From assembly GCF_006717075.1 (NCBI RefSeq), contig NZ_VFQC01000001.1, positions 744,001 through 808,000 on the forward strand: DNA of 64,000 nucleotides, given 5' to 3'. Positions 14,961 through 60,299 of the stretch are shown here, piece by piece. Under the pieces are notes generated by a model, which saw only the letters and a list, made by a program, of their open reading frames with translations, was not told the DNA's origin and did not search any database. Source of the DNA: Haloactinospora alba (lineage in GTDB: Bacteria > Actinomycetota > Actinomycetes > Streptosporangiales > Streptosporangiaceae). The translations under genes and the position numbers were made by a program. Position 1 is the first letter of the stretch, and each line of letters opens with the position of its first letter.

Positions 14961-15740
14961 ATGAATATTGTCGTATTGGTCAAGCAGGTCCCGGACACGG
15001 CGACCGAGCGGAAACTCGCACCGGAGGACAACACGCTGGACCGCGCGGCGTCCGACGGAGTCATCAACGAACTCGACGAGTACGCCATCGAGGAGGCGCT
15101 GCTCCTCAAGGAGAAGCACGGCGGAGAGGTCACCGTCCTGACCATGGGACCGGACCAGGCCACGGAATCGATCCGCAAGGCCCTGTCCATGGGTGCGGAC
15201 AAGGCCGTGCACGTCAACGACGAGGCGCTGCACGGTTCCGACGCCCTGCAGACGGCCTACGCGCTGTCCCAGGCCCTGGGAACCCTCGAGTTCGACATCG
15301 TGGTGCTGGGCTCGGAGTCCACCGACGCGCGTACCGGCCTCGTGGGGGCCGCCCTGGCCGAGTACCTCGAGCTTCCGCAGCTCACTCTGGCCGGCAAGGT
15401 CGAGGTGGACGGTTCCTCCGTGACGGTGCAGCGCCAGACGGACTACGGCTACGACGTCGTCGAGGCCAAGCTGCCGGCCGTGGTCTCCGTCGTGGAGAAG
15501 ATCAACGAGCCGCGGTACCCGTCCTTCAAGCTCATCATGCAGGCGAAGAAGAAGCCGGTGGAGAAGCTGACGGTTTCCGACGCCGGGATCGAGCAGGACA
15601 AGGTCGGACTCGCGAACGCCGCGACCGAGACCGTGGACTTCGCGCCGGCTCCGCCGCGACCCGCGGGCACTGTCGTCAAGGACGAGGGCGACGGCGGCAC
15701 GAAGGCCGCCGAGTTCCTCGCCGAGAAGAAGTTCGTTTAG
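14961..15740 (+). CDS. etfB: electron transfer flavoprotein beta subunit
   Basis: A 259-residue protein that begins MNIVVLVKQVPDT and contains LDEYAIEEALLLKE, VTVLTMGP and SESTDARTGLVGAALAEYLELP, all characteristic of EtfB. With EtfA it accepts electrons from acyl-CoA dehydrogenases and passes them to the quinone pool; EtfB binds AMP. The ATG at 14961 fits the family start; GGGAGG lies 12 or more bases upstream. etfA follows 31 bp downstream, so the two are one operon. Confidence 0.95.
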   Translation: MNIVVLVKQVPDTATERKLAPEDNTLDRAASDGVINELDEYAIEEALLLKEKHGGEVTVLTMGPDQATESIRKALSMGADKAVHVNDEALHGSDALQTAYALSQALGTLEFDIVVLGSESTDARTGLVGAALAEYLELPQLTLAGKVEVDGSSVTVQRQTDYGYDVVEAKLPAVVSVVEKINEPRYPSFKLIMQAKKKPVEKLTVSDAGIEQDKVGLANAATETVDFAPAPPRPAGTVVKDEGDGGTKAAEFLAEKKFV

Positions 15741-15771
15741 GTCCGGCGGAGACGAAAGAGGGAATCGAGAA

Positions 15772-16716
15772 ATGGCTGAGGTCCTCGTCCTCGTCGACCA
15801 CGTCGACGGGGAGGTAAAGAAGGTCACCAACGAGCTGCTCACCGCCGCGCGACGCGTCGGTGAACCCGCGGCCGTGTGGGTCGGCGCCGGCGCCGACGCC
15901 GCCGCACCGAAACTCGCCGAGTTCGGCGCGGAGAAGGTGTACACGGCCAGCTCCGAACTCAACGACTACGTCGTCGCCCCCAAGGCGGAGCTCCTCGCCA
16001 AGCTGGCCGGGGAGAACTCTGCGGCTGCGGTTCTGGTGTCCGCCACCCCCGAGAACAAGGAGGTGGCCGCGCGTACCGCGGTCAAGCTGGGATCGGGCGC
16101 CCTGACCGACGTGGTGGACGTGACCCCCGAGCTGGTGACCGAGCACAGCATCTTCGGTGGCGCCACCGTCACCCACGCCAAGGTGCGCACCGGTGCCCCG
16201 GTGGTCGCCCTGCGCCCCAACTCCGTGACCGCCGAGGCCTCCCAGGGGGCCGGGGCCCAGGAGGAGGTCTCCGTGGACCTCCCCGAGTCCGCGACCTCGG
16301 CGAAGGTCGTGGAACGGGTCAAGCAGGAGCGCGGCGCACGCCCCGAACTCACCGAGGCCGCGATCGTCGTCTCCGGTGGCCGGGGCGTCGGTTCCGAGGA
16401 CTTCTCCGTGGTGGAGTCCCTCGCGGACTCGCTCGGTGCCGCCGTGGGCGCGTCCCGTGCCGCTGTGGACTCCGGCTGGTACCCCAACGAGTTCCAGGTC
16501 GGCCAGACCGGGAAGACGATCAGCCCGAACCTGTACATCGCGCTGGGCATCTCCGGAGCGATCCAGCACCGGGCGGGTATGCAGACCTCGAAGAACATCG
16601 TCGCGGTCAACAAGGACCCGGAGGCTCCCATCCACGAGATCAGCGACTTCAGCGTGGTGGGGGACCTGCACAAGGTGGCGCCGCAACTGACCGACGAGGT
16701 CAACAAGCGCAAGTGA
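15772..16716 (+). CDS. etfA: electron transfer flavoprotein alpha subunit
   Basis: A 314-residue FAD-binding subunit. The C-terminal FAD signature is complete: QTGKTISPNLYIALGISGA, QHRAGMQTSKNIVAVNKD, then APIHEISDFSVVGDLHKV. The N-terminal AEVLVLVDHVDGEVKK is the EtfA nucleotide-fold start. GAGGGA lies about nine bases before the ATG. It should work with the acyl-CoA dehydrogenases at 57.2-59.5 kb and others elsewhere in the genome. Confidence 0.96.
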   Translation: MAEVLVLVDHVDGEVKKVTNELLTAARRVGEPAAVWVGAGADAAAPKLAEFGAEKVYTASSELNDYVVAPKAELLAKLAGENSAAAVLVSATPENKEVAARTAVKLGSGALTDVVDVTPELVTEHSIFGGATVTHAKVRTGAPVVALRPNSVTAEASQGAGAQEEVSVDLPESATSAKVVERVKQERGARPELTEAAIVVSGGRGVGSEDFSVVESLADSLGAAVGASRAAVDSGWYPNEFQVGQTGKTISPNLYIALGISGAIQHRAGMQTSKNIVAVNKDPEAPIHEISDFSVVGDLHKVAPQLTDEVNKRK

Positions 16717-16812
16717 GCTGCCTGCTGGCCGGGGGAGTGGGACATCCGACCCGTTCCCCCGACCGCCCTGCGGGACAGCGGGCACGCGCCCGGCCGTATC
16801 CTGGGCAGTGCC

Positions 16813-17976
16813 ATGGTGTATCTGGATCACGCCGCCACAACAGCCGTCCGCCCCGAGGCCGTCGCCGACATGACCGAGGAGTTCGGTCAGCTCGGCAACG
16901 CCTCCTCACTGCACGGGGCCGGCCGCCGGGCGCGCCGGGTGGTCGAGGAGGCCCGCGAGGACATCGCCGGGGCCTTCGGCGTCACTCCCTACGAGGTGGT
17001 GTTCACCGGTGGGGGGACGGAGGCGAACAACCTCGCGGTCAAAGGGCTGTTCTGGGCGCGTAACCGTGCTTCCCCCGAGCGCCGGCGCATCCTGGTGAGC
17101 GCGGTGGAGCACCACGCCGTGCTCGATCCGGCGCGTTGGATGGCCGACGCGCAGGGGGCGGTCTACGAGGAGCTCCCGGTCGACGAGTACGGCCGGGTCC
17201 CGCCGCGGGAGCTGCGTGCCGCGATCGAGAGGAACCCCGCCGACGTCGCCCTGGTATCGGTCATGTGGGCGAACAACGAGGTGGGAACGCTCCAGCCCGT
17301 GCACGCGTTGGCGGAGATCGCCCGGGAGTACGGCATCCCGTTGCACACGGACGCCGTGCAGGCGGTCGGTACGCAGCCGATCGATATGGGCTCCGTGTCC
17401 GCGCTCACGGTGTCCGGCCACAAGATCGGCGGTCCGATGGGGGCGGGCGCGCTCCTGCTCGCGCGCGGGGTGGACCCCGTCCCGGTCCTGCACGGTGGCG
17501 GACAGGAGCGGGAGGTGCGCTCCGGAACGGTCATGACACCACTGCTGCGCGGAATGGCCACCTCGGTCCGGATGGCTGTCGAGGAGCGGGAGCCGCACGC
17601 GGCCCACCTCGCCAAACTCCGGGACGAACTGGTCACGGCGGTGCGGGACGCTGTCCCCGAGGCCGTGGTGAACGGTCACCCCACCGAGCGCCTCCCTGGC
17701 AACGCTCACGTCTCGTTCCCCGGTTGCGAGGGGGACGCCCTGCTCATGCTGCTCGACGCTCGCGGCATCCAGTGCTCGACGGGCTCGGCCTGCTCCTCCG
17801 GCGTGGCACAGGCGAGCCACGTGCTGCTCGCCATGGGCGCCGCGGAGGAGACAGCGCGCAGTTCCCTGCGTTTCTCACTGGGGCGGGACTCCTCCAGTGC
17901 CGACGTCTCCGCCCTGTACTCGGCCCTCGGCCCCGCGGTCGAACGTGCTCGCCGCGCCCGGGAGAAGCGCCACTGA
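16813..17976 (+). CDS. cysteine desulfurase (NifS/IscS family)
   Basis: A 387-residue PLP enzyme that removes sulfur from cysteine as a persulfide for tRNA thiolation and iron-sulfur assembly. YLDHAATT opens the protein, VEHHAVLDP carries the active-site His, the PLP lysine is in VSGHKIGGPMGAG, and the persulfide Cys is in CSTGSACSSG. TATCCT at 16797-16802 ends ten bases before the ATG and there is no clear Shine-Dalgarno, so a leaderless or near-leaderless transcript is possible. mnmA lies 1.6 kb downstream and needs this sulfur. Confidence 0.94.
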   Translation: MVYLDHAATTAVRPEAVADMTEEFGQLGNASSLHGAGRRARRVVEEAREDIAGAFGVTPYEVVFTGGGTEANNLAVKGLFWARNRASPERRRILVSAVEHHAVLDPARWMADAQGAVYEELPVDEYGRVPPRELRAAIERNPADVALVSVMWANNEVGTLQPVHALAEIAREYGIPLHTDAVQAVGTQPIDMGSVSALTVSGHKIGGPMGAGALLLARGVDPVPVLHGGGQEREVRSGTVMTPLLRGMATSVRMAVEEREPHAAHLAKLRDELVTAVRDAVPEAVVNGHPTERLPGNAHVSFPGCEGDALLMLLDARGIQCSTGSACSSGVAQASHVLLAMGAAEETARSSLRFSLGRDSSSADVSALYSALGPAVERARRAREKRH

Positions 17977-18026
17977 GCACCGCCGGCCGTGGCACACCGG
18001 GCGCGGGGAGGGTGCGGACGGGCGGG

Positions 18027-19205
18027 TCAGGACCCCAGCTGGCGCCGGAACATGGTACGTAGCTGGTTGATGGACTGCCATTCCGGGTCGAGCCGGCTCT
18101 GTACCGTGGAGCGGCCTTCGGACCACTCACGCACGGCCGCTTCCACCTCGGGGAGAACGCCCGACTCCGGATCGAGGTAGTAGTGCAGCTGCCGGTGCCC
18201 TCCCACCGTCTGCTGGGCGAGGAGAGCTCCGTTGTCGCCCAGGATGCCGTCGACACGCGTGACGAACTCGTCCAGCGCGGACGCGGAGGGCTCCACCGGG
18301 CGTTTGTCGTTGTCGCTGTGGGCGTAACCGAGTGACACCTGGACGTAAAGCGTGAAAGCGGGAAAGTCGCGCCGGTGCAGCGGGTGGCGGAGGGAGAACT
18401 CGACGATCCCCCGCAACGGGACGCGCATCTGCAGCGTGGGCCAGCTGTTCGCGTTCCCGCCGCCGGAGAGCTGACGCACCACGGCAGGCAGCGAGGTCGG
18501 GGGCAGCGGGTCCAGCGGCCGTTCCGCCAGGGGCTCCACTCCGGCTATCCAGCGCACGTAGTCGTCCTCGCCCAGCGCGAGCATCACCACGTGCTCGGCC
18601 AGACTGGTTTGGGTCTCCTCGGGAAGGAACATGTTGTCCGGGTGGTACACCCCGGCGTCGATCGTGCCCTGCCGCTGGTCCACCCGGAGGGACAGGGCGG
18701 CGTGTGACAGGTCGAACGTGTGGTCGTCCCAGGTGATCGAGCTGGTGAGCTGCTCGTGGTCCGCCGGGTAGGCGGGGTGGAACTGCCACTCCGCGTCCTT
18801 GGGGGCGGAACGCAGCCACCGCTCGGTGAGGATGCGCGCCGAGTCGTCCGGCCCACCACTGAGGGTCAGCGCGTAGGAAGCCGTACTTCCCAGCAGCGCC
18901 AACGGATCGTCCATGTCGGACATCCGCGCCATGAGTTCCTCGGGATCCTCGTCCCCCATGGTGCCGAGGTCACCGGGTCCGCTGTCCGCGGAGCGGGAAA
19001 CGGCGGAGACCTCCCATGTCAGTTCGGGATGGATCCGCTGTACCCGTTCGGTGACACGGGCGGCGGTCTCCTCGGGAACCGGTTCGCCCGCGTCGACCGA
19101 CGCGGCCAACGTGCCACGGACGTCGTCCCAGTGTGCCCAGAACTCGTCCACGGCTGCGACGGATCCGGTCTCGTCAGCGGAGCGGCGACGGCGAAACAGA
19201 GCCAT
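18027..19205 (-). CDS. DUF695-like protein of unknown function
   Basis: A 392-residue soluble protein starting MALFRRRRSADE. The C-terminal half (QTVGGHRQLHYYLD, then REWSEGR and DPEWQSINQL) resembles DUF695 domains; the N-terminal half has two further repeat-like blocks with Trp-rich beta strands (ITWDDHTFDLS, WPTLQMRVPL). No signal peptide, membrane helix or catalytic motif is visible. It lies between the cysteine desulfurase and mnmA but on the other strand, converging on the desulfurase with 50 bp between stops. A function in thiolation is not implied by sequence. Confidence 0.75.
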   Translation of the reverse strand: MALFRRRRSADETGSVAAVDEFWAHWDDVRGTLAASVDAGEPVPEETAARVTERVQRIHPELTWEVSAVSRSADSGPGDLGTMGDEDPEELMARMSDMDDPLALLGSTASYALTLSGGPDDSARILTERWLRSAPKDAEWQFHPAYPADHEQLTSSITWDDHTFDLSHAALSLRVDQRQGTIDAGVYHPDNMFLPEETQTSLAEHVVMLALGEDDYVRWIAGVEPLAERPLDPLPPTSLPAVVRQLSGGGNANSWPTLQMRVPLRGIVEFSLRHPLHRRDFPAFTLYVQVSLGYAHSDNDKRPVEPSASALDEFVTRVDGILGDNGALLAQQTVGGHRQLHYYLDPESGVLPEVEAAVREWSEGRSTVQSRLDPEWQSINQLRTMFRRQLGS

Positions 19206-52549: not shown

Positions 52550-52620
52550 TCTGCACAACTATGCAGACTCTGTTGCGCGGATACGCAACATTCGTGGCTT
52601 CTGCGCAGATAAACGCAACA
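52550..52620. promoter_or_regulatory. cluster of palindromic operators upstream of the permease
   Basis: Three inverted repeats lie within 71 bp: TCTGCA-CAACTA-TGCAGA (52550-52567), TGTTGCG-CGGATA-CGCAACA (52571-52590) and TCTGCGCAGA (52600-52609), followed by ACGCAACA (52613-52620). The 12-bp and 14-bp arm pairs are perfect. The element CGCAAC/GTTGCG occurs three times. The surrounding 52530-52700 is visibly AT-richer than the coding DNA. It is a likely regulator-binding region for the amino acid uptake and catabolism genes downstream. Confidence 0.6.
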
Positions 52621-52749
52621 GAAACTGGTTATGTTAGCCACGTAACACCGATAGCGTTGTGCATTGGCGCAGAGCTCTCATAAGGGGAGCTATAGGGCTT
52701 TCTCGGACAAATGCCGCGCCATCCTGTCGCGCTATCGCATCCAAGGAGT

Positions 52750-54261
52750 ATGGAGTTGGTCGAGGACCACCAGACCGCGGAGGCGCCCCCGGCTTCCTCA
52801 GGGAGCGGAGCCGGGGCCTCCGGGCGCCCCCCTCTCACGACGCGACTCACCCGCCGCAAGCCGGTGGAACGGGTCGTCGACGAGACCGGCCAGGGAGACG
52901 ACGGCAGGCTGCACCGGTCGATGGGGATGTGGCAGCTCACCGCCATCAGTATCGGTGCCACTCTGGGAACCGGCATCTTCGTGGTACTCGGCGAGGCCGT
53001 CCCGGACGCCGGACCGGCGGTCGTGCTGTCCTTCGTCATCGCCGGTGTCACCGCCCTGTTCTCCGCGTTGGCCTACGCGGAGCTGGCGGGGATGATCCCG
53101 GCCTCGGGCTCGGCCTACTCCTATTCCTACGCCACCATGGGAGAGCTGCTGGCCTGGGTGTGCGGCTGGTGCCTGATGCTGACCTACGGCGTCTCCGTGG
53201 CCGCGGTGGCCGTGGGGTGGAGTGACTACATCGACAAACTCCTCGTCCTCACCACCGGCCTGTCCCTTCCCGCGGAACTCGCCGGACCGCTCGGGGAGGG
53301 CGGGATCGTGAACCTTCCCGCCGCCGCCGTGGTTCTGCTGGCGATGGTCGCGCTCCTCGGCGGGGTCCGGGAGAGCGCCTGGGCCAACCTCGTCATGGTC
53401 GTGATCAAGATCGGTGTCCTCGCGCTGTTCGTCGGGATCGGGGTGACCGCCGTACAGGACCAGAACTTCGCCCCGTTCCTCCCGCTGGGTATGGGCGGGG
53501 TCAGCGCCGCCGGCGCCACCCTCTTCTTCTCCTACATCGGGTTCGACGCGGCCTCCACGGCCGGGGAGGAGGCGAAACGGCCGCAACGCGACCTCCCCAG
53601 GGCGATCATGCTGTCGATGGTCATCGTGACAGCGCTCTACTGCCTGGTCGCCGTCGTCGCCGTGGGCGTGCTCCCCTGGGACCGGTTCGAGGGAACCGAC
53701 GCCTCGCTGGCGACCATCCTCACCATGGTGACGGGAACGCCGGTCTGGTCCCTGGTGTTCACGCTCGGCGCGCTCATCGCGATCGCCAGTGTGGTGCTGG
53801 TCGTGCTGTACGGACAGACCCGCATCCTGTTCGCGATGTCGCGCGACGGCCTGGTGCCGCGTGTCTTCTCCACCGTCGACGCCAAGGGCACCCCCCGCGC
53901 GAACACGGTCATCGTCACCGCGTTCATCGCCTTTCTCGCCGCTCTGGTCCCGCTGGGCCACCTCGCCGACGCCACCAGCATCGGCACCCTGTTCGCCTTC
54001 GGGATGGTCAACGTGGCCGTCCTGGTGCTGCGACGGATCCGGCCGGAACTGCAACGCGGTTTCCGGGTGCCGCTGTCGCCGCTCGTGCCGCTTTTGGGGG
54101 TGGCCTCGTGCGCGTACCTGATGCTGAGCATGGGGATCTCCACCTGGGTCGCCTTCGGCTCCTGGCTGGTTCTCGGCCTGGTGGTCTACTTCGGCTACAG
54201 CATGCGCCGTTCGCGTCTGGAACCGGGCAACAGCACGCACACCGCGGCCCTGCGCGAGTGA
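52750..54261 (+). CDS. APC-family cationic amino acid transporter
   Basis: A 503-residue permease with about 12 membrane helices. The opening LHRSMGMWQLTAISIGATLG-type text with GTGIFVVLGE, then AALAYAELAGMIPASGSAYSYSYAT-type and GEEAKRPQRDLPRAI segments, place it in the CAT (cationic amino acid transporter) branch of the APC superfamily, which imports Lys, Arg or related amino acids. AAGGAG lies one base before the ATG at 52750 but seven before an in-frame TTG at 52756, so the true start may be the TTG. The adjacent amidase and amino acid monooxygenase fit import of lysine or arginine. A strong terminator follows. Confidence 0.88.
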   Translation: MELVEDHQTAEAPPASSGSGAGASGRPPLTTRLTRRKPVERVVDETGQGDDGRLHRSMGMWQLTAISIGATLGTGIFVVLGEAVPDAGPAVVLSFVIAGVTALFSALAYAELAGMIPASGSAYSYSYATMGELLAWVCGWCLMLTYGVSVAAVAVGWSDYIDKLLVLTTGLSLPAELAGPLGEGGIVNLPAAAVVLLAMVALLGGVRESAWANLVMVVIKIGVLALFVGIGVTAVQDQNFAPFLPLGMGGVSAAGATLFFSYIGFDAASTAGEEAKRPQRDLPRAIMLSMVIVTALYCLVAVVAVGVLPWDRFEGTDASLATILTMVTGTPVWSLVFTLGALIAIASVVLVVLYGQTRILFAMSRDGLVPRVFSTVDAKGTPRANTVIVTAFIAFLAALVPLGHLADATSIGTLFAFGMVNVAVLVLRRIRPELQRGFRVPLSPLVPLLGVASCAYLMLSMGISTWVAFGSWLVLGLVVYFGYSMRRSRLEPGNSTHTAALRE

Positions 54262-54275
54262 CCCGTACCTCCCCT

Positions 54276-54329
54276 CCCTCCTGTGCGGGCGGGGCCGCGG
54301 TTCCTCGGCGACCACCCCGCACAGGAGGG
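54276..54329 (+). terminator. terminator after the permease
   Basis: CCCTCCTGTGCGGG (54276-54289) and its perfect complement (54316-54329) form a 14-bp stem with a 26-base loop. Confidence 0.75.
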
Positions 54330-54357
54330 CAACAGATACCGCGTTCGGCGCCGAATA

Positions 54358-54406
54358 ACGCAATGAACGGCATGGATATCCGCAAAAATCCCGACCATTG
54401 TTGCGT
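54358..54406. promoter_or_regulatory. ACGCAA/TTGCGT operator pair upstream of the amidase gene
   Basis: ACGCAA (54358-54363) and TTGCGT (54401-54406) face each other across 37 bp in an AT-richer stretch 53-101 bp before the amidase start. The same core (CGCAAC/GTTGCG) occurs three times upstream of the permease, suggesting one regulator for both transcripts. Confidence 0.45.
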
Positions 54407-54458
54407 CTACAGTGGTGTGTGAAGGCCAAACACACGGATGTGGCGCTGGGAGACGGGA

Positions 54459-55334
54459 ATGGCAGCGGATCAGCACGGGGACAGCGGGGAAGGGGCGGCA
54501 CTCCGGATCGCCCTGGACCAGTCCGCGGGACCCAGCCGGGACCCCGACGGGGCACTCGGGAGCCTGGAGCGCTCCGCCGCTGCGGCCGCGGAACGCGGCG
54601 CGCACCTGCTGGTGACACCGGAGATGTCGCTCACCGGCTACAACATCGGGGAGGCCAGCTCCGCGTTCGCGGAACCCGCCGACGGCCCGCTGGCCGGAAG
54701 CGTCGCGCGGATCGCCGCCCGACAGGGAATCGCGATCCTCCACGGTTACCCCGAACGCGAGGGGCAGGCCGTCCACAACACGGCCCAGCTCACCGACGCC
54801 GCCGGAAACACCCGCGCCGGTTACCGCAAAACCCACCTGTTCGGCCCGGCCGACCGCGGCGTTTTCACCCCCGGCGACGCCGGCCTCGTCCAGACAGAGC
54901 TCAACGGCCTACGTCTGGGCATCCTCATCTGCTACGACGTGGAGTTCCCGGAGATGGTGCGCAGGCACGCGCTCGCCGGAACCGACCTCCTGCTGGTCCC
55001 CACCGCCCTCATGCACCCGCACACCGCCGTCGCCACCTCCGTGGTTCCGGTACGCGCCCTCGAGAACCAGATCCATGTCGCCTACGTCAACCGCTGCGAC
55101 ACCGAGGGGGAACTCGACTACTGCGGACTGAGCTGTCTGGTCGACCCGTGGGGGGAGGAACTCCTCCGGGCCGGCAGCGGTCCGGAACTGCTGCTCGGAG
55201 AGGTGGACCGGCGCACGATCACCGCAGCGCGCCGCAGCGTTTCCTACCTGGCCGACCGCCGCCCCGAGCTCTACACACCACTGGCTTACCGGGAAGCCGC
55301 GCCCGGCACGACGACAGGAGACACATCCCGATGA
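54459..55334 (+). CDS. davA: nitrilase-superfamily amidase, DavA-like (5-aminovaleramidase type)
   Basis: A 291-residue hydrolase of the nitrilase superfamily with the Glu-Lys-Cys triad: E55 in TPEMSLTGYNIG, K124 in GYRKTHLFG and C158 in ILICYDVEFPE. LRIALDQ at the start and ELDYCGLSCLVDPWG later resemble Pseudomonas DavA, which hydrolyses 5-aminovaleramide to 5-aminovalerate. The ATG at 54459 follows GGGAGACGGGA; a GTG seven codons earlier is possible. Its stop overlaps the monooxygenase ATG (ATGA), so both proteins are made together. If the partner acts on arginine the substrate would be 4-guanidinobutyramide instead. Confidence 0.8.
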   Translation: MAADQHGDSGEGAALRIALDQSAGPSRDPDGALGSLERSAAAAAERGAHLLVTPEMSLTGYNIGEASSAFAEPADGPLAGSVARIAARQGIAILHGYPEREGQAVHNTAQLTDAAGNTRAGYRKTHLFGPADRGVFTPGDAGLVQTELNGLRLGILICYDVEFPEMVRRHALAGTDLLLVPTALMHPHTAVATSVVPVRALENQIHVAYVNRCDTEGELDYCGLSCLVDPWGEELLRAGSGPELLLGEVDRRTITAARRSVSYLADRRPELYTPLAYREAAPGTTTGDTSR

Positions 55335-57070
55335 CATCCGCAATGCCCACCGCCGTTCCCACCGGGGCACAAGCCCAGCGGCCGCTGACCATGTGCGGCC
55401 CGGACTTCCCGTTCGCCTACGACGACTACCTGTCCCATCCGGCCGGCCTCGGGGAGGTCCCCCCCGAGTACCACGGCACCGAGGTGGCGGTGATCGGAGG
55501 CGGCCTCTCCGGGATCGTCACCGCCTACGAACTGATGAAGATGGGGCTCAGGCCGGTCATCTACGAGGCGGGGGAGATCGGCGGACGCATGCGGACGTCG
55601 CGCGACCCCAGCTGGCCCGAGGGCGTCACCGCCGAGATGGGCGCCATGCGTTTCCCCACCTCGTCCACGTCACTGTTCCACTACATCTCCAAAACGGGCC
55701 TGGAGACCACGCCCTTCCCCAACCCGCTGGCGCCGGACACCCCCAGCACCGTCGTCGACCTCAAGGGCGAGTCGAGCTACGCCCACACCCCGGAGGAACT
55801 TCCGGAGGTGTACCAGCAGGTGGCCCGGGCATGGGACCGGACGCTGGAGGAGGGAGCGCGTCAGTCCGAGATGCAGCAGGCCATCCGTGAGCGTGACACC
55901 GCCCGGATGAAGGAGATCTGGAACGAGCTCATCCCCAGGCTGGACGACCAGACGTTCTACGGGTTCCTGTGCAACTCCCCGGCGTTCTCGTCGTTCCGCC
56001 ACCGGGAGATCTTCGGCCAGGTCGGGTTCGGTACCGGCGGCTGGGACACGGACTTCCCCAACTCCATCCTGGAGGTCCTGCGCATCACCTACACCGGTGC
56101 TGACGACGACCACCTCAGCATCGTCGGCGGCTGCCAGCAACTCCCGCAGCGGTTGTGGCGGCACGCGCCCGACAAGCTCGTGTACTGGCCCCAGGGGACG
56201 ACCCTGGCGGACCTGCACGGGGGGACACCGCGCCCCGCCGTCACCCGACTGGCACGCACCGCCCCGGATACCCGGGAGGAAAACGCGGGACACACCGCGA
56301 GTGCCCCGAACAACATCACCGTGACCGACTCCGCGGGCGCGATCCGCACCTACCGTGCCGCGGTGTTCACCGGACAGAGCTGGATGCTGCTCAGCAAGAT
56401 CGCCTGTGACGAGAACCTACTGCCGATGCGGCACTGGAACGCGGTCGAGCGCACCCACTACATGGAGTCCTCGAAACTCTTCGTGCCGGTCGACCGCCCC
56501 TTCTGGCGCGACACCGACCCCGCCACCGGCCGCGACACCATGAGCATGACGCTCACTGACCGGATGACGCGGGCCACCTACCTGCTGGACGAGAACAAGG
56601 CGTCGGGCCCCGCCACCATCTGCCTGTCCTACACCTGGTGCGACGACTCGCTGAAGTGGCTCCCGCTGCCGGTGAACGAGCGCATGAACGTCATGCTCGA
56701 CTCACTGGGGCAGATCTATCCCGGGGTGGACATCCGCTCGCACATCGTCGGCGACCCCGTCACCGTCTCCTGGGAGGCCGAGCCCTACTTCCTCGGAGCG
56801 TTCAAGGCCAATCTCCCCGGCCACTACCGGTACCAGCGGCGGCTGTTCACACACTTCAAGCAGGACCGGCTGGAGGAGCAGTACCGCGGTCTCTTCCTCG
56901 CCGGCGACGACATCTCCTGGACCGCCGGCTGGGCCGAGGGCGCGGTGCAGACCGCCCTGAACGCGGTCTGGGGCGTCATGAACCACTTCGGCGGGGCGAG
57001 CGACCCGGCCAATCCCGGACCGGGCGACCGGTTCGACGAGCTCGCGCCGCTGGAGCTCCCCGAGGACTGA
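55331..57070 (+). CDS. davB: flavin amino acid 2-monooxygenase, DavB-like (lysine 2-monooxygenase type)
   Basis: A 579-residue FAD amine-oxidase-fold enzyme. The dinucleotide motif EVAVIGGGLSGIVTAYE (51-67), MCGPDFPFAYDDYLSHPAGL at the start, VTAEMGAMRFPTSS, FGQVGFGTGGWDTDFPNS, VSWEAEPYFLGAFKA and FLAGDDISWTAGWAEGAVQT closely follow Pseudomonas DavB as I remember it. Such enzymes oxidatively decarboxylate lysine to 5-aminovaleramide; tryptophan, phenylalanine and arginine monooxygenases share the fold. The cationic permease and the coupled amidase favour lysine or arginine. It overlaps the amidase gene by four bases and ends before a strong terminator. Confidence 0.85.
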   Translation: MTSAMPTAVPTGAQAQRPLTMCGPDFPFAYDDYLSHPAGLGEVPPEYHGTEVAVIGGGLSGIVTAYELMKMGLRPVIYEAGEIGGRMRTSRDPSWPEGVTAEMGAMRFPTSSTSLFHYISKTGLETTPFPNPLAPDTPSTVVDLKGESSYAHTPEELPEVYQQVARAWDRTLEEGARQSEMQQAIRERDTARMKEIWNELIPRLDDQTFYGFLCNSPAFSSFRHREIFGQVGFGTGGWDTDFPNSILEVLRITYTGADDDHLSIVGGCQQLPQRLWRHAPDKLVYWPQGTTLADLHGGTPRPAVTRLARTAPDTREENAGHTASAPNNITVTDSAGAIRTYRAAVFTGQSWMLLSKIACDENLLPMRHWNAVERTHYMESSKLFVPVDRPFWRDTDPATGRDTMSMTLTDRMTRATYLLDENKASGPATICLSYTWCDDSLKWLPLPVNERMNVMLDSLGQIYPGVDIRSHIVGDPVTVSWEAEPYFLGAFKANLPGHYRYQRRLFTHFKQDRLEEQYRGLFLAGDDISWTAGWAEGAVQTALNAVWGVMNHFGGASDPANPGPGDRFDELAPLELPED

Positions 57071-57179: not shown

Positions 57180-58298
57180 CTAGGACGGTATGTCAGCCAG
57201 CCGGGAGAGCACCCGGCGGTGCCGGTCGGGAGTTCCCAGGGCGATCGCGTCGCTCTTGGCCCGCTTCAGGTACAGGTGGAGGGGATGCTCCCAGGTGAAC
57301 CCGATCCCTCCGTGCAGCTGCACCGCCTCCTCGGTGGCCCGGACAGCCACGTCGGAGACGAACGACTGGGCCAGGGAAGCGTTCAGCTCCACCTCCGAGC
57401 TCTCCGCCGCCACGGCGTCCGCCGCGTTGCGGACCACCGCCCGGGCCTGGGAAACCCCCACCCACAGGTCGGCGAGACGGTGTTTGAGCGCCTGGAACGA
57501 GCCGACGGGCCGTCCGAACTGCGTGCGGGTCCCCACGTAGTCGACCGTGGTCTCCAGCGCCCATTCGGCGATCCCGAGCTGTTCCGCGGACAGCAGGGCG
57601 CAACCGTTCACCAGGGCGGCGCGCAGAGCGGTGTCCGCCCGTTGCCCGGATGCCACCAGCCGGCCCGAGGCCCCGGAAACGTCGACGTCCGTGAGGGGAC
57701 GCGTCATGTCCAGGCTCACGACAGCCGACCGCCGTGTCTCGGCGGCGTCGACCAGGCAGAGCGCCGGCCCCTCGGGGCCGCTCGCGGGAACGAGCAGCCG
57801 GTCCGCGGCGATCGCGTCGGCAACCCCTTCCACCGTTCCGGACAGTGTCCCGTCGGCCGCCGCCCGCACCGAGGTGGGGAACGGCGCGTCGGGAGCCGTA
57901 GCCAGCCCGACAGCCAACGCCGCGACGGACCCTCCTGTCGCCAGCGCCTCGAGGAGGGCGGCCTCGTCCCGGCCGAGGGACATCAGGGCGGAGGTCACCA
58001 TGACGGCACTGCCCAGATACGGTACGGGGGCCAGGCCGCGTCCGAGTTCCTCGGCGACGACGGCCGCCTCCCGGAACGTCGCCCCGGAACCGCCGAGTTC
58101 CTCGTCGAGGGGCAGCCCGGTCGTTCCGAGACCGGCGAGTTCCTGCCACAGCGCGGAGTCGACGACGGCCGCACCCCCCTCGTCCACACGGCCCAGGACG
58201 GCGGAGACCGGGCTCTTGTCGGCCAGCAGCGCACGAACGCTCGACCGCAGTTCCTCCTCGACGTCGGTGTAGAGGAGATCCGGTGTTGTCTCGCTCAT
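57180..58298 (-). CDS. acyl-CoA dehydrogenase, shorter partner
   Basis: A 372-residue flavoprotein of the acyl-CoA dehydrogenase family. TTGLPLDEELGGSGATFREAAVVAEELGRG, GTRTQFGRPVGSFQALKHRLAD-type text and AVQLHGGIGFTWEHPLHLYLKRAKS are typical. Like FadE partners of steroid and branched-acyl pathways, it is shorter and has a less conserved active-site loop than its neighbour. Its ATG overlaps the stop of the upstream dehydrogenase gene (ATGA), so the two are co-translated and may form a mixed alpha2-beta2 enzyme passing electrons to ETF. Substrate unknown. Confidence 0.87.
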   Translation of the reverse strand: MSETTPDLLYTDVEEELRSSVRALLADKSPVSAVLGRVDEGGAAVVDSALWQELAGLGTTGLPLDEELGGSGATFREAAVVAEELGRGLAPVPYLGSAVMVTSALMSLGRDEAALLEALATGGSVAALAVGLATAPDAPFPTSVRAAADGTLSGTVEGVADAIAADRLLVPASGPEGPALCLVDAAETRRSAVVSLDMTRPLTDVDVSGASGRLVASGQRADTALRAALVNGCALLSAEQLGIAEWALETTVDYVGTRTQFGRPVGSFQALKHRLADLWVGVSQARAVVRNAADAVAAESSEVELNASLAQSFVSDVAVRATEEAVQLHGGIGFTWEHPLHLYLKRAKSDAIALGTPDRHRRVLSRLADIPS

Positions 58299-59500
58299 CG
58301 GGGGAGGTCCTTCCATGCGAGATCCTTGTCCGTCCTCGGCTCGGCGGGAAGCCCCAGGACGCGTTCGGCGATGATGTTGCGCAACACCTCCGAGGTTCCG
58401 CCCTCGATCGAGTTGCCCTTGCTGCGCAGGTAGTGGAATCCGGCGTCGCGTTCGGTGAACTCGATGCCCTCCGGTCGGCGGAACGTCCAGTCCGTGTAGG
58501 TCAGCCCCTCCTGGCCCAGCATCTCCAGCTCCACGCCGGAGATCTCCTGGTTGAGCTCCGCGAAGGCAAGCTTCGCCGCCGAGCCCTCCGGTCCGGGTTG
58601 CCCCGCCGCGAGCTGTTGCCGCAACCGTTCCTTGGTGAGCCGGGCCGCCTCGGCCCGGACCCAGAGCCGGAGGAGCTCGTCGTGCGTACCCGGTGTGCGC
58701 AGGTCCGGGCGTGAGCGCCACGTGTCCGTGACCGTGCCGATCAGACCGCCCTCGCGTGGCTCGGGCTGTCCGCCGATGGAGACGCGTTCGTTCATCAGGG
58801 TGGTCTGGGCTACCCGCCATCCCTCACCGACGGAGCCGAGCCGTTGCGTGTCCGGGATCCGGACGTCGTTGAGGTAGACCTCGTTGAACTCCGCCTCGCC
58901 GGTGAGCTGCCGCAACGGCCGTACTTCCACCCCGGGGGCCCGCATGTCGCAGATGAAGTAGGTCAGCCCCTGGTGTTTCGGAACGTCCGGATCGGTACGG
59001 GCGAGGAGGATGGCCCAGTCGGCGTGGTGGGCGAGTGACGTCCACACCTTCTGCCCGTTGAGTACCCAGGAGTCCCCCTCCTGAACGGCGCGGGTTCCCA
59101 GGGCAGCGAGGTCGGAACCCGCACCGGGCTCGCTGAACAGCTGGCACCAGAGCTCCGCTCCGGTGTACAGCGGTCTGAGGTAACGCTGGCGTTGTTCGGG
59201 GGTGCCGAACGCGAGGATTGTGGGAGCCGCCATTCCCAGGCCGATAACCAGCCGCTCCCGGCCGGTGGGCGTGAAGCCGAACCGTGCGAACTCCGCGTCG
59301 ACGGTCTCTTGCAGGGAACGCGGCGCTCCCAGGCCACCCTCACCGGGAGGGAAGTGCACCCAGGCCAGACCGGCGTCGAAACGCGCGGCGAGGAAATCCT
59401 CCTGTTTCGTGGTTGCGGGGTCGTAGCGGGAGACGAACTCGGCTACCCGTTCCCGGAGCGCGGGCGCGTCGAGAGGGGCGTCCGTGGGGACCGATGACAT
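58295..59500 (-). CDS. acyl-CoA dehydrogenase, longer partner
   Basis: A 401-residue acyl-CoA dehydrogenase. CQLFSEPGAGSDLAALGTRA and WVLNGQKVWTSLAHHADW form the FAD and acyl pocket, LRQLTGEAEFNEVYLNDVRIP follows, and SIEGGTSEVLRNIIAERVLGLP is the C-terminal flavin contact. GGAGGT four bases before the ATG sets the start at 59500. It lies between the fabG-like gene (40 bp upstream) and the shorter dehydrogenase (overlapping). The operon probably oxidises a branched or cyclic acyl-CoA. Confidence 0.9.
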   Translation of the reverse strand: MSSVPTDAPLDAPALRERVAEFVSRYDPATTKQEDFLAARFDAGLAWVHFPPGEGGLGAPRSLQETVDAEFARFGFTPTGRERLVIGLGMAAPTILAFGTPEQRQRYLRPLYTGAELWCQLFSEPGAGSDLAALGTRAVQEGDSWVLNGQKVWTSLAHHADWAILLARTDPDVPKHQGLTYFICDMRAPGVEVRPLRQLTGEAEFNEVYLNDVRIPDTQRLGSVGEGWRVAQTTLMNERVSIGGQPEPREGGLIGTVTDTWRSRPDLRTPGTHDELLRLWVRAEAARLTKERLRQQLAAGQPGPEGSAAKLAFAELNQEISGVELEMLGQEGLTYTDWTFRRPEGIEFTERDAGFHYLRSKGNSIEGGTSEVLRNIIAERVLGLPAEPRTDKDLAWKDLPR

Positions 59501-59540
59501 GGGACCTCCGTTGCGGCGCTGTGGATGGGGACGGTCGGGC

Positions 59541-60299
59541 TCAGTCGAGCGGGCCCCCGGCGACGTAGATGACCTGGCCGGAGACGAATCCGGATTCCTC
59601 ACTGGTGAGGAAGGACGCGGTGGCGGCGATGTCCTCGGGGCGCCCCGGACGGCCGACCGGTACCCGGTCGGCCGCGGCTTTCTTGAAGTCATCGAACTCC
59701 ATGCCGAGCCGTTCCGCGGTGGCCTTGGTCATGTCGGTCTCGATGAACCCGGGAGCGATCGCGTTGGCCGTGACGCCGAACTTGCCGAGTTCGATGGAGA
59801 GCGTCTTGGTGAAGCCCTGCATCCCGGCCTTCGCGGCGGAGTAGTTGACCTGGCCGCGGCTGCCCTGGGCCGAGCTGCTGGACAGGTTGACGATGCGGCC
59901 CCAGCCGGCGGAGGTCATGTGCGCCTGGGCGGCCCGACTCATCAGGAACGCGCCGCGCAGGTGGACCCCCAGGACCGTGTCCCAGTCCTCCTCGGACATC
60001 TTGAACAGCAGGTTGTCCCGGATGACTCCGGCGTTGTTCACCAGGATGGTGGGTGGGCCGAGTCGTTCGGCCACCCGCGCGACGGCGTCGGATGCCTGCT
60101 GGGCGTCACTGACGTCCGCTCCGACGGCGGTGGCTGTGCCGCCCTCGGCGGTGATCGTTTCCACCGTGTCCGTTCCGTCGCTCTCGTGCAGGTCGACAAC
60201 ACCGACGGAGTGTCCGTCGGCGGCCAGACGGCGGGCGGTGGCCGCGCCGATCCCGCGGGCAGCTCCGGTCACGATCGCAACACGGGGGGTCTCTGGCAT
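59541..60299 (-). CDS. short-chain dehydrogenase/reductase, FabG-like
   Basis: A 252-residue SDR. The cofactor loop TGAARGIG (11-18), VNNAG (about 88-92), and catalytic Ser (NLSSSSAQG), Tyr and Lys (YSAAKAG) are intact; the C terminus FVSGQVIYVAGG is FabG-like. It is likely a 3-oxoacyl- or 3-hydroxyacyl-CoA oxidoreductase, given the two acyl-CoA dehydrogenases that follow. AAGGAGG six bases before the ATG decides the start. First gene of the operon; a TetR-type palindrome lies about 107 bp upstream. Confidence 0.9.
   Translation of the reverse strand: MPETPRVAIVTGAARGIGAATARRLAADGHSVGVVDLHESDGTDTVETITAEGGTATAVGADVSDAQQASDAVARVAERLGPPTILVNNAGVIRDNLLFKMSEEDWDTVLGVHLRGAFLMSRAAQAHMTSAGWGRIVNLSSSSAQGSRGQVNYSAAKAGMQGFTKTLSIELGKFGVTANAIAPGFIETDMTKATAERLGMEFDDFKKAAADRVPVGRPGRPEDIAATASFLTSEESGFVSGQVIYVAGGPLD

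Follow-up and report, generated by a model that had tools for sequence, protein, structure and literature searches.

We found that three neighbouring genes of Haloactinospora alba probably serve a catabolic arginine-monooxygenase route, by which arginine would be converted to GABA and then to succinate. They lie in a 64,000-nucleotide stretch of DNA, hereafter the window (the whole stretch analysed), together with two pairs of operator-like repeats:

52581..52625, + strand: operator-like direct-repeat half-sites ATACGCAACATTCGT and AAACGCAACAGAAAC, 30 bp apart, upstream of the permease gene
52756-54261, + strand: permease of the APC superfamily, CAT/GkApcT-like amino acid permease; frame open from 52711 (516 aa)
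54356..54392, + strand: operator-like direct-repeat half-sites TAACGCAATGAACGG and ATCCGCAAAAATCCC, 22 bp apart, upstream of the amidase gene
54459-55334, + strand: amidase, 291 aa; DavA-like carbon-nitrogen hydrolase (nitrilase family), probable 4-guanidinobutyramide amidase by homology and context
55331-57070, + strand: monooxygenase, 579 aa; FAD-dependent basic L-amino-acid 2-monooxygenase, DavB-like, probable arginine 2-monooxygenase

The kind of pathway has long been known, and the locus, which is conserved in Streptomyces and Nocardiopsis, is most likely an ordinary one with no route to an unusual product. We tentatively suggest that it may be the housekeeping arginine 2-monooxygenase operon of actinomycetes and that its family may be the source of the PKS-linked arginoketide monooxygenases, its genes and Lrp-type operator being seemingly unassigned in the literature; our searches of the open literature gave no paper assigning the locus and led to just the papers on polyketides and cyanobacteria cited here. 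Three points are of use: the split into two clades, the residues accompanying it and the operator. If the proposed route is correct, an arginine-to-GABA route known biochemically in Streptomyces since the 1960s gains genes, a candidate transporter and a regulatory signal, and actinomycete DavB-like genes should not be annotated by default as lysine enzymes. A254, H258 and G515 would then be residues that accompany a clade other than that of the lysine enzyme, and the enzyme may be a candidate for feeding arginine-primed polyketides where the cluster lacks a monooxygenase of its own.

All three frames are open on the + strand, and those of the amidase and monooxygenase share an ATGA overlap. 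Their products match AA_permease_2 (E 2.7e-52) with AA_permease_C, CN_hydrolase (E 1.8e-42) and Amino_oxidase (E 1.8e-48) in Pfam, and together with the alignment to the solved monooxygenase 3WE0 this bears out the grouping of a permease, a DavA-like amidase and a DavB-like monooxygenase given in the first-pass annotation. The permease frame offers in-frame candidate starts at 52711, 52750 (ATG) and 52756 (TTG), the last of which has the best-placed ribosome-binding site (AAGGAG, 7 nt before the TTG). The best solved match of the amidase is the amidase 3HKX, with the Glu-Lys-Cys triad lining up at its TPE, YRK and ICYD motifs, and its nearest solved structures are nitrilase-family amidases that share these catalytic motifs. 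The monooxygenase was found in 98 loci, the window counted in. By tblastn, an amidase homologue candidate lies upstream of it in 77 of 81 loci and a permease homologue candidate in 56 of 81, counts in which some contigs end too early, and this recurrence indicates that the grouping has not arisen by chance. Recent phage cargo was ruled out, as there was no phage match and the genes upstream of the locus in the window are also those found upstream of its Nocardiopsis orthologues. Immediately 3' of the locus, two acyl-CoA dehydrogenase-like ORFs lie on the - strand (window 57180-59692), with a short-chain dehydrogenase further on; these ORFs are not usual neighbours of the locus in relatives.

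Next, we compared the monooxygenase with the L-amino acid oxidase/monooxygenase of Pseudomonas sp. AIU 813 (3WE0, 5YB6-8), a lysine 2-monooxygenase of the DavB type. The two align over their full length (E 7e-226; 310/548 residues, 57% identical), with the amine-oxidase fold and the FAD-binding Rossmann motif. The residues that its ligand-bound structures show to bind the substrate, R102, W235, D238, Y416, W418, F473, W516 and K424, are all kept, including Asp238 for the cationic side chain, R102 and Y416 for the alpha groups and the F473/W516 cage. In the Pseudomonas enzyme, which takes Lys, Orn and Arg, Asp238 binds the positively charged end of these substrates, whereas Val or Leu occupies this position in the enzymes that act on Trp and Phe (PMC5832979). 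The davAB-like chemistry on a basic amino acid proposed earlier thus agrees with the residues kept. An aromatic substrate of the IaaM type was rejected as very unlikely, given that Asp238 and Trp235 are kept and that 4IV9 is far more distant. As the Asp238 enzyme accepts Lys, Orn and Arg, however, this residue alone does not separate lysine from arginine. The window enzyme differs from 3WE0 by C254A, Q258H, A515G, E140K and Q349M; A515G is one of two pocket-widening changes in related enzymes with larger substrates (PMC5832979), and Gly replaces Ala515 in the clade to which the window enzyme belongs. In another second copy of the monooxygenase gene (L140:8825-10492), Asn stands in place of the substrate-binding Asp238, and this copy, which adjoins an amidase, a peptidase-M20 and GntR/PucR-type regulators, may have a different substrate.

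Upon placing the enzyme in a maximum-likelihood tree of 44 relatives, we observed two clades, A (11 rows) and B (33 rows), with the split supported at 100/100. Clade A holds the lysine enzyme 3WE0, alphaproteobacterial plasmid copies and two loci adjoining a GABA transaminase, whereas clade B holds the window enzyme with those of Nocardiopsis, Streptomyces, Pseudonocardiaceae and others, and the window enzyme therefore falls outside the clade of DavB proper. Six clade-B loci (L128, on a Tsukamurella plasmid, its near copy L144, L141, L147, L152 and L037) carry a gene for an arginase-family ureohydrolase in the flanking sequence retrieved, and no clade-A locus does. In the Haloechinothrix locus (L037) the order is amidase, monooxygenase, ureohydrolase, and genes for a class-III aminotransferase and a PAD_porph (agmatine-deiminase-type) protein lie close by. 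By a rough estimate, at least five ureohydrolase neighbours among 28 loci would arise by chance with P about 2e-6. The difference between clades (6/33 against 0/11) is not significant alone, label shuffling shows no significant clustering of the linkage on the tree, and no Nocardiopsis or Streptomyces orthologue checked has a ureohydrolase near the locus. Ureohydrolase neighbours fit 4-guanidinobutyrate and not 5-aminovalerate, which favours arginine in clade B; since the linkage counts are not significant alone, the weight for arginine comes from several lines together.

These further lines include the rest of the H. alba genome. We find a ureohydrolase gene (G000:C1:1599591-1600532) that is orthologous to the locus-linked ureohydrolases (63-72% identity) and whose best solved match is the guanidinobutyrase 3NIO, at 278 bits compared with 225 for the best agmatinase, although it also scores above the NCBIfam agmatinase cut-offs and would be named agmatinase by NCBIfam. 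A search for three known families of arginine decarboxylase gave nothing above cut-off in the genome, so agmatine is no obvious substrate for this enzyme. Among 150 genomes of the family, the ureohydrolase orthologue is present in 17/17 with the monooxygenase and in 62/133 without it (P 7e-6), and when counted by genus in 7/7 against 35/61 (P 0.03). Additionally, a GABA transaminase above its NCBIfam cut-off is encoded about 130 kb from the locus (G000:C1:671129-672379), and there are many succinate-semialdehyde-dehydrogenase-like genes, none above cut-off, with aldehyde dehydrogenases present. Immediately after the GABA transaminase gene lies a carbon-nitrogen hydrolase gene whose nearest match is 'deaminated glutathione amidase' (L135:7219-9458; G000:C1:670218-672457).

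In the proposed route, the permease would import an amino acid, probably a basic one, and the flavoenzyme would convert L-arginine to 4-guanidinobutyramide and CO2, an oxidative decarboxylation to the amide being suggested by the overlapping amidase gene. The amidase would then release ammonia to give 4-guanidinobutyrate, the ureohydrolase would yield GABA and urea, and the GABA transaminase with a semialdehyde dehydrogenase would lead to succinate. The earliest description of a catabolic arginine route via 4-guanidinobutyrate came from Streptomyces griseus (van Thoai et al. 1966, as cited in PMC2242806). The gene set of H. alba fits the steps of that route to GABA and succinate, a likeness by reactions, while its pathway genes are split over at least three separate genome sites. 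The first-pass annotation had noted that no davT or davD follows the locus and had taken this to favour a use other than catabolism. None adjoins it, but the conclusion fails, as the genome search returned the above-cut-off GABA transaminase and the semialdehyde-dehydrogenase-like genes as candidates for these steps away from the locus, and their lack next door is no argument for a non-catabolic use.

The earlier annotation left the substrate as lysine or arginine, and the tree clade, the ureohydrolase neighbours in relatives, the genome's own ureohydrolase and A515G together favour arginine as the probable main substrate. The main rival is a lysine route as in Pseudomonas davBA, in which lysine would pass through 5-aminovaleramide and 5-aminovalerate and, by a GabT-type transaminase and a semialdehyde dehydrogenase, to glutarate. 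This appears unlikely, though it has the full-length identity of 57% to the lysine enzyme and the kept Asp238 on its side, and the GABA transaminase of the genome could act as DavT; the position outside the lysine-enzyme clade and the substitutions C254A, Q258H, A515G, E140K and Q349M speak against it, and clade-mates linked to a ureohydrolase make no sense for lysine. Very improbable is the reading that the enzyme is mainly an L-amino acid oxidase, forming a 2-oxo acid and H2O2 since residue 254 is not Cys. The C254I change in the Pseudomonas enzyme left monooxygenase activity undetectable (PMC5832979), and the window enzyme has Ala254; Ala, however, is small, unlike Ile, and the product should be an amide, given the amidase gene that overlaps the monooxygenase gene here and is next to it in almost every relative.

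It is likewise very improbable that the window locus supplies 4-guanidinobutyrate (or 5-aminovalerate) to start a polyketide or to be exported, the use suggested in the earlier annotation. Support for this idea comes from another organism of the same class. Besides the usual monooxygenase copy, its genome has a second, clade-B one, next to which lie genes for a ureohydrolase and a VinK-type acyltransferase, along with a thioesterase-containing PKS module (L141:3055-15087; PKS at 15240-19001). A layout like this has been reported for arginine-primed marginolactone clusters (PMC4737276, PMC5082578), and L141 probably belongs to a cluster for an arginine-primed macrolactone. A further point in favour is that no arginine monooxygenase gene is present in the azalomycin cluster as it was cloned, so this gene must sit elsewhere in the producer (PMC5082578). 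The two reactions predicted here would be the same as those of the arginine monooxygenase and 4-guanidinobutyramide hydrolase of azalomycin and desertomycin biosynthesis in Streptomyces, likened by reaction rather than by sequence, and the clade of the window enzyme includes the PKS-linked L141. The window locus, in contrast, shows no adjoining PKS, CoA ligase or loading acyltransferase, and has a permease and probable Lrp-type control. No PKS family is prominent beside about 80 orthologues, and the genome-wide search for ketosynthases gave seven matches to the family with no sign of a large modular PKS, far too few for an arginine-primed macrolactone, of which a known example has 19 modules (PMC5082578). 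With the downstream catabolic genes present in the genome, the starter-unit idea fits the L141 paralogue and not the window locus, for which arginine catabolism is the preferred reading.

Upon examining the upstream regions, we observed a direct repeat of consensus about (G)CGCAAYGAAT before the permease and amidase genes of relatives, its half-sites lying 21-22 or 30-31 bp apart, a distance of two or three helical turns. The window was left out when the motif was derived from relatives, and the motif was afterwards located in it, at 52581/52611 and 54356/54378. Counting pairs at a spacing of 20-23 or 30-32 bp, we found them upstream of 42/56 permease genes and 61/77 amidase genes in relatives; 60 kb of control loci from the H. 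alba genome contained no such pair, nor did the regions preceding its genes for the ureohydrolase, the GABA transaminase and the regulator. Perfect palindromes were also considered as the operator and set aside, with no sensible palindrome enriched. Most of the relatives in Streptomyces and Nocardiopsis have an Lrp/AsnC-family gene within the locus or next to it, a homologue being seen at 64 loci. The H. alba orthologue of this gene, 84% identical, lies about 1.86 Mb from the locus (C1:2656209-2656679; L134:6210-6671) and still adjoins the GNAT gene that is its neighbour in Nocardiopsis. Such joint displacement of regulator and neighbour indicates that the locus has been split by a rearrangement directly beyond the monooxygenase gene, and the breakpoint is probably just downstream of window position 57070. 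We propose a putative pairing of this Lrp/AsnC protein with the direct repeats, through which it would probably control the permease gene and the amidase-monooxygenase operon.

Finally, we investigated the permease, which had been annotated as cationic, an assignment that is not established here. Its score for the NCBIfam cationic permease family is well below the cut-off (304 bits against 681.7), and its best family scores are for TIGR00909 (a general amino-acid transporter) and BcaP, both below cut-off and above the cationic family. The nearest solved structure is GkApcT (5OQT, 6F34), a CAT (SLC7) homologue that prefers small neutral amino acids and whose M321S variant transports Arg (PMC5803215). 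The homology extends over the full length, with Thr43, Lys191, Phe231, Ile234 and Asp237 kept. At position 321 the permease does not have the Ser of that variant; Met321 is replaced by Val, and Glu115 and Ala119 by Thr and Ser, respectively. The locus-linked permeases of relatives share the Val at 321 and the Ser at 119. The M321V and E115T changes would move the binding site towards a roomier one, in keeping with a larger substrate.
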